64,000 nt of DNA from an uncultured Lachnospiraceae bacterium (GTDB lineage Bacteria > Bacillota > Clostridia > Lachnospirales > Lachnospiraceae), in NCBI GenBank assembly GCA_947173945.1, contig CAMWGV010000001.1, forward strand, positions 1 to 64,000, given 5' to 3'. The notes under the pieces are model-generated. The model saw nothing but the letters and a program-made list of their open reading frames with translations, made no database searches and was not told where the DNA came from. Position numbers and translations under genes: made by a program. Numbering within the stretch: the first letter of the stretch is position 1; the number at the start of each line of letters is the position of its first letter. Of the stretch, positions 22,199 to 31,669 are shown in pieces.

Positions 22199-22284
22199 AA
22201 AACACGCTTTTGCTTGTCTGAGACGAGCGAAAGCGTGTTTTATGTGTATATAGCAGCATGTGACTACCGCAGGCAAGCCTACAA
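22199..22284. repeat. Partial copy of the 31279-31634 element: hairpin AAAACACGCTTTTGCTTGTC..GACGAGCGAAAGCGTGTTTT then TATGTGTATATAGCAGCATG; likely also acts as a terminator
   Basis: Shares GACGAGCG(A/G)AAGCGTG and TTTTATGTGTATATAGCAGCATG with 31501-31601. Confidence 0.75.
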
Positions 22285-31245: not shown

Positions 31246-31278
31246 AGAAGATAAGAGGCGTCGTGTATCAAGAAAAGA

Positions 31279-31634
31279 TTACATGGTATGCCCCTGCCTG
31301 ACACAGTCACCATGCTGCTATATACACATAAAACACGCTTTCGCTCGTCTCCGACGTAACGGTACTAAGAATTGTCTGTACGGATGCACCCTATACAGTA
31401 ACGAAAAACCGTTTGAAGACGTCGGTACTTAAATTGCCGGCTTGGGAATTCTATTATTGTGCTATCTTAAACCGGCAATTTCTAGTACCGTTACGTCGGA
31501 GACGAGCGGAAGCGTGTTTTTTCGTTACTGTATAGGGTGCATCCGTACAGGCAATCCAAGTACCGACGTCTTCAAACGGTTTTATGTGTATATAGCAGCA
31601 TGGTGACTGTGTCAGGCAGGGGCATACCGTGTAA
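31279..31634. repeat. ~356-bp mosaic inverted-repeat element (55-bp terminal arms, four further internal complementary pairs)
   Basis: Pairs: 31279-31333/31580-31634; 31334-31367/31483-31516; 31369-31408/31518-31557; 31409-31430/31558-31579; 31431-31440/31472-31481. Confidence 0.92.
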
Positions 31635-31669
31635 TCTTTTTTTGTGTAATGCCCCTTTCATTCCATTCA

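Follow-up and report, generated by a model that had tools for sequence, protein, structure and literature searches.

A modular palindromic repeat of Lachnospiraceae with concentric, alternating levels and a bulged GNRA hairpin

Architecture and nested pairing of the palindrome

The window, the whole 64,000-nt stretch of Lachnospiraceae DNA that was analysed, carries a long imperfect palindrome at 31269-31644 (Table 1). Its neighbours, an M23 peptidase gene and a DUF6240 gene, are in tandem, not convergent, and none of the ORFs accounts for the region 31279-31634 as coding sequence, in agreement with the initial annotation. That annotation described five inverted-repeat arms, A to E, all of which are recovered by self-comparison of the window roughly where they had been placed, arm A being longer (66 nt as against 55). 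The right-hand arms B', C' and D' are indeed in direct order. A pattern scan of the window copy for a GC-rich stem directly followed by a T-run, as in a U-tract terminator, was negative; by eye, GGGGCTG..CAGCCCC ends flanked by A/T are present in other copies. A sigma-70 promoter in the arms was also considered and set aside: a TATA-like sequence adjoins the modules, but no consistent -35 element is seen by eye and a scan of the window gave nothing above chance.

Table 1. Arms, boxes and modules of the palindromic element in the window
Feature	Position	Strand	Basis or remark
Two-level nested hairpin, whole, arm A to A'	31269..31644	.	arms 66 nt, 97% complementary; nested minimum-energy fold
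Arm pair A/A'	31269-31334/31579-31644		66 nt, 97% complementary
Arm pair B/B'	31330-31379/31471-31520		90% complementary
Arm pair C/C'	31371-31408/31518-31555		97% complementary
Arm pair D/D'	31405-31438/31550-31583		94% complementary
Arm pair E/E'	31431-31443/31469-31481		92% complementary
Outer arm A	31269..31329	+	arm self-comparison
Beta box, outer level (arm B)	31330..31370	+	HMM hit L001:1552-1592
Mini-hairpin GCTTTCGC in outer beta box	31337-31344		reads GCGAAAGC (GNRA) on minus strand
Stem C (left), copy-specific, complementary to C'	31371..31404	+	arm self-comparison
Delta box, inner level (arm D)	31405..31432	+	HMM hit L001:1627-1654
Innermost stem-loop E	31433..31482	.	arm self-comparison
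Inner module (delta-E-beta')	31404..31521	+	covariance model R1, E = 2.0e-18
Beta' box, inner level; partner of delta 31405-31432	31483..31520	-	HMM hit L001:1705-1742
GCGGAAGC (GNRA) in inner beta' box	31506-31513	+	
Stem C' (right)	31521..31556	-	arm self-comparison
Delta' box, outer level; partner of beta 31330-31370	31557..31583	-	HMM hit L001:1779-1805
Outer arm A'	31584..31644	-	arm self-comparison
Collapsed remnant copy (L026): beta joined directly to beta' and part of right outer arm	22199..22265	.	

The folding energy of the element (-248.7 kcal/mol) is 32 s.d. below that of dinucleotide shuffles (-98.0 kcal/mol), none of 100 being as low, and on either strand it lies far from the shuffles. 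In the fold of minimum energy, which is nested, B pairs with D' and D with B'; the partial complementarity between B and D, already recognised at the outset, turns out to be the key to the structure. From the outside in, the levels are arm A, beta:delta', stem C, delta:beta' and core E, where beta (AAAACACGCTTTCGCTCGTCTCMGACGTAACGGTACTA) and delta (AAAACCGTTTGAAGACGTCGGTACTT) denote the boxes in arms B and D. Beta looks like delta enlarged by an extra AA and by an insert of some ten bases that can fold on the opposite strand as a GC-GNRA-GC mini-hairpin. The two boxes are the halves of one module. This 87-nt module is the unit of the repeat: its delta and beta' halves pair around the core, the beta' side carries both the bulged mini-hairpin with its GNRA loop and a bulge of 2 nt, and the whole is flanked by self-complementary arms that are kept as pairs and not as sequence.

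When the boxes are placed by two small HMMs across all fetched loci, all 131 intact levels are beta:delta' pairs, and orientation alternates at every one of the 54 steps from level to level in intact copies. One level is present in 27 intact copies, two levels in 46 and three in 4, the stem between levels being mostly 32-35 nt and most commonly 34 nt long. The only homotypic pair is found in the collapsed deletion copy of the window, and the other incomplete patterns are decayed or cut by contig ends. Since stems C are 91% complementary inside one copy and 56% alike across copies, it is pairing, not sequence, that is kept in the stems, while the boxes keep both. Part of the agreement between arms could come from arm-to-arm correction instead of selection, to which the covariation of the boxes is less exposed because beta and delta differ. 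At 17 paired box positions, same-level partners changed together 29 times, as against a mean of 3.9 and a maximum of 15 in 2000 shuffles.

The direct order of B', C' and D' had been taken to mean that their pairings cross. The sequence does contain crossing complementarity, and one copy has its inner part inverted relative to the outer boxes (L014 compared with L015 and L016). Nevertheless, crossing pairs that arose by shuffling, or that serve as a switch between alternative structures, are very improbable. The joint changes in two-level elements fall on nested partners (12), not on swapped-level (0), crossing beta-beta (0) or crossing delta-delta (1) partners, the computed folding is nested, and alternation is unbroken among intact copies, which free shuffling would not give. 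That crossing partners match at all follows from the closeness of every beta box, and of every delta box, to its own family consensus. It is not the crossing pairing that is maintained, and a pseudoknot is ruled out by the confinement of covariation to nested partners. A mosaic, rearranging, multi-copy element had been proposed as well, and this much is correct; the free shuffling of its segments is not, given the strict alternation of beta and delta.

Copies, range and rearrangement

Copy numbers were derived from sequence searches and are probably lower bounds, as copies of the palindrome probably break assemblies. The genome to which the window belongs (2.84 Mb, 108 contigs) has 124 local matches to the 356-bp query, about 25 of them long copies, and several further one-level copies. 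The 356-bp sequence finds DNA matches in 19 of 61 genomes searched, all within the genus, while a covariance model built from aligned one-level modules of the genus finds matches in 36 of the 37 genus genomes, with up to 60 hits each. In an order-wide sample of 146 genomes, those with the module number 11, all of them among the 15 of Lachnospiraceae, and none of the 131 genomes from other families of the order has a match to the model. An assembly artefact, the first of two outcomes named beforehand as speaking against the element, is excluded because seven or more independent assemblies show the structure, and the other, a single-copy, invariant state in relatives, did not occur. The element is multi-copy, dispersed, intergenic, non-coding and self-complementary, as interspersed repeats are. 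An origin in plasmids or phages was discarded, as plasmid and phage records gave no match and viral contigs gave none for two box patterns. Several public MAGs (JAMPBO records; L074, L080, L083-L085, L091 and L092) titled 'Bacteroides sp.' or 'Clostridium sp.' match the window's Lachnospiraceae genus, and their titles look mislabelled. The draft contigs of L099, L101, L103 and L069 (JAAVIA010000060.1, 47, 58 and 42) start inside elements.

Three near-identical copies of about 420 bp (L014, L015 and L016) lie at unrelated sites with unrelated flanks, their identity ending sharply at GGCTGTCGCAC/GTGCGACAGCC. Such blocks suggest that the element is, or has been, mobile. The inversion of segments between arms, also proposed initially, is seen in part: it affects the inner part of one of these three copies, relative to an outer box pair. 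The outer ends GGGGCTGTCGCAC..GTGCGACAGCCCC recur as plain short hairpins with A/T flanks, and the short hairpins that share these ends but lack the module look like larger copies after internal deletion. Of one element that is complete in genome G019, genome G024 retains the right arm alone. In the window's own genome, the terminal sequence is found at palindromic elements, in short hairpins or alone, and nowhere else. No target-site duplication was seen by eye among the compared copies, and the comparisons yielded truncated copies or diverged junctions, with no clean empty site.

Outside the beta/delta levels, in the outer parts of L014, L015 and L016 and in L087 and L102, the further unlike boxes ATGTTTTTATTGGTATTTGACAGCATGAGTTG and ATGTTTTTTATCTGTCAGTTGCTTATGAGTTG pair with each other, as a module of another type that has no fixed orientation relative to the inner levels. 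Two elements of genome G034, L143 (~1229-1462) and L184 (~1560-1768), have their beta box interrupted by another small hairpin, TGTCCTGAGG..CCTCAGGACA; this insertion suggests a second mobile hairpin family there.

The initial annotation also pointed to a link with REP elements and their Y1 (RAYT) transposases. This link finds no support: the Y1 transposase (PF01797) is absent from the window genome and the high-copy genomes of its clade (G000, G036, G034, G014, G028, G021 and G001), and membership of the REP/BIME-RAYT group was rejected on this ground. Ten of the 37 genus genomes do have a Y1 transposase, among them the repeat-poor or repeat-free G027, G031 and G007. The Y1 family was the one searched, and no enzyme linked to the elements was found. 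The idea of gene cassettes flanked by modules, raised by G019 and G024, was dropped because the genes concerned are ordinary-looking leu, pur and ilv operon genes (named by eye).

Covariation and the folding strand

Inside the module, doubly changed cells number 24 as against 4.3, and the excess is maintained in alignments of 80 matches (397 as against 96 in shuffles) and 105 matches (484 as against 130), which lean towards the covariance model because they were fitted to it, though the margin is large. Slid controls are well below the match alignments. The mini-hairpin loop is a GNRA tetraloop (GAAA, GAGA, GCAA, GGAA, GGGA or GCGA) in all 68 distinct modules and in 153 of 159 in a larger set. 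Membership of a known structured RNA family was dropped, since neither the window copy nor seven loci of other species matched any of the 4227 families of Rfam 15 up to E = 1. A likeness of 'CTGA...GAAA' to the hammerhead was also given up, since conservation does not extend to the CTGA part.

A mismatch that reads G.U on one strand reads A.C on the other, which allows the folding strand to be recognised. In the arms around single modules, the GNRA strand carries the G.U in 151 cases and the opposite strand in 63; this bias persists at distances from the module of 4-8, 9-14 and 15-28 nt, and 25 of 28 untied genomes, by our own count of the table, lean the same way. The one-level arms in the window's clade show it too (21:7). 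Stacked elements are balanced, both in the outer arms (25:29) and in stems C (36:35), which fits the fact that alternating levels would render the two strands equivalent; any wobble bias in core E was left out of this comparison because the core is nearly identical in most copies and hence not independent. Within the module, the excess of G.U over A.C is weak (35:28, and 66:31 in the larger set). Compensatory changes and strand-specific wobble pairs, both marks of structured RNA, are thus present, and a strand-specific single-stranded form is supported. This form is most likely the GNRA strand as RNA rather than as single-stranded DNA, although G.U pairs within the module are not much above A.C and so leave room for a form at the DNA level.

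Hairpins recognised by enzymes of the IS200/IS605, REP/RAYT or integron attC type carry bulges, and d(GCGAAAGC) is a very stable DNA hairpin. The GNRA strand might therefore fold as single-stranded DNA for a transposase or recombinase of this kind; the bulges of the module resemble those in such hairpins, the wobble bias suits any strand-specific single-stranded form, and the orientation of the modules to genes is almost free. Such a DNA element is nonetheless distinctly unlikely. The Y1 transposase is lacking in the window genome and the other high-copy genomes of its clade, orientation shows no preference relative to GC skew (90:71, p = 0.16), and a purely DNA role predicts neither the loss of strand bias in stacked copies nor their clustering at convergent gene ends. 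Nor is the GNRA strand clearly the sense strand of the neighbouring genes: single modules are sense-oriented in 68 cases and antisense in 52 (p = 0.17), with genera leaning in opposite directions, so that read-through RNA is not required for every copy. It is conceivable, though quite improbable, that a non-autonomous element has the module as its RNA and spreads via its own folded transcript, as a mobile unit that is RNA-templated or RNA-guided. The pairing on one strand, whatever the orientation of the neighbouring genes, would then be explained, as would the lost strand bias of stacked copies, which have a module on each strand.

Neighbouring genes and relation to known repeats

Stacked elements lie mainly between convergent genes: their 51 neighbourhoods are convergent in 38 cases, tandem in 11 and divergent in 2, as against 19, 153 and 33 of 205 background gene pairs at the same loci (p = 3e-20), with gene calls being simple longest ORFs, so that individual contexts may be wrong. 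Outside the window's clade, 118 of 143 single modules are between tandem genes, one setting being a leu-ilv operon, and over all tandem cases the median distance from module to next start codon is 71 nt. The 3' ends of aspS and polC have elements with unrelated stems in several species and a plain hairpin or truncated copy in others; that of polC in one close relative has a plain hairpin only. In four genomes (G023, G024, G015 and G022; L155, L159, L160 and L162), the polC 3' end has a long imperfect palindrome with a CTCGCTTCGCTCAG-like centre, and these relatives are without the beta/delta element there.

The convergent stop codons around stacked copies, the recurrence at aspS and polC and the plain short hairpins with the same outer ends are all expected if the elements are non-mobile bidirectional terminators, owned by the host and elongated in place, with arms and boxes selected for strong termination between convergent genes. 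Such an origin is unlikely, as it leaves unexplained the near-identical whole units at unrelated sites, the unrelated stems at the same junction in different species, the polC junction with a plain hairpin alone, the single modules in operons close to start codons, and a conserved GNRA-hairpin module that termination does not need.

The element is probably a non-autonomous, modular palindromic repeat, similar to MITEs and BOX elements, which in the window's clade is stacked into a two-way 3'-end hairpin. Lachnospiraceae would have a family of such interspersed repeats. In this clade the units are stacked concentrically and neighbouring levels face opposite ways, which gives both strands of a two-level stack a correctly oriented module. 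Stacked copies between convergent genes may then act, probably as RNA, as two-sided 3'-end hairpins in termination or 3'-end protection, and such long hairpins would be useful there, or at least tolerated.

Although the element shares its life style with several known repeats, it has its own distinctive features. REP sequences and BIMEs are dispersed extragenic palindromes with asymmetric features, which alternate in orientation within BIMEs. The Lachnospiraceae units are likewise dispersed and alternating, but BIME units of about 35 nt lie side by side, the unit here is 87 nt plus arms, and the window genome has no Y1 gene. Integron attC sites have conserved ends (the core sites) and a variable centre, the reverse of the conserved centre and variable arms seen here. 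With bidirectional intrinsic terminators, the element shares its position as a hairpin between convergent stop codons, and plain short hairpins of the genome share the outer stem sequence; it differs in being far longer, in having a conserved module with its own bulges, and in the occurrence of single modules in operons.

The pneumococcal BOX, RUP and SPRITE elements are dispersed, multi-copy, hairpin-forming intergenic repeats over-represented between convergent genes; the number of inner units varies in BOX, which is modular, and SPRITE is terminator-like (PMC3049150). By description, the Lachnospiraceae element resembles them in being dispersed, modular, hairpin-forming and, when stacked, enriched between convergent genes. 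Its levels are concentric and strictly alternating, unlike the inner units of BOX, which lie side by side, and, unlike all three, its arms vary with pairing kept and its module has a bulged GNRA hairpin. ERIC, NEMIS/Correia and YPAL measure 100-200 bp, are imperfectly palindromic and occupy intergenic regions that are transcribed; they have been proposed as MITEs working through hairpins in RNA (PMC2229807). The present element is also an imperfect intergenic palindrome; its arms differ among copies, however, no terminal TA or target duplications were found, and it is stacked, a feature that the parts of that source consulted do not describe for these three families. The open-licence literature yielded no description of this repeat family and no described family that matches the concentric, strictly alternating stacking, the palindromic candidates of PMC8040213 standing outside the sequence comparison. 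The best-supported placement is beside BOX/RUP/SPRITE and ERIC/NEMIS in life style, as a member of no named family.

A structured multi-copy element with very strong covariation and no Rfam match is thus present in a major gut family, in 11 of the 15 genomes sampled. If the folded form is RNA, the element would represent a widespread class of two-sided 3'-end structures; if it is not, it would point to mobilisation by a system recognising one folded strand. In both cases the rule is the same: strand bias in one-level copies and none in stacked copies.
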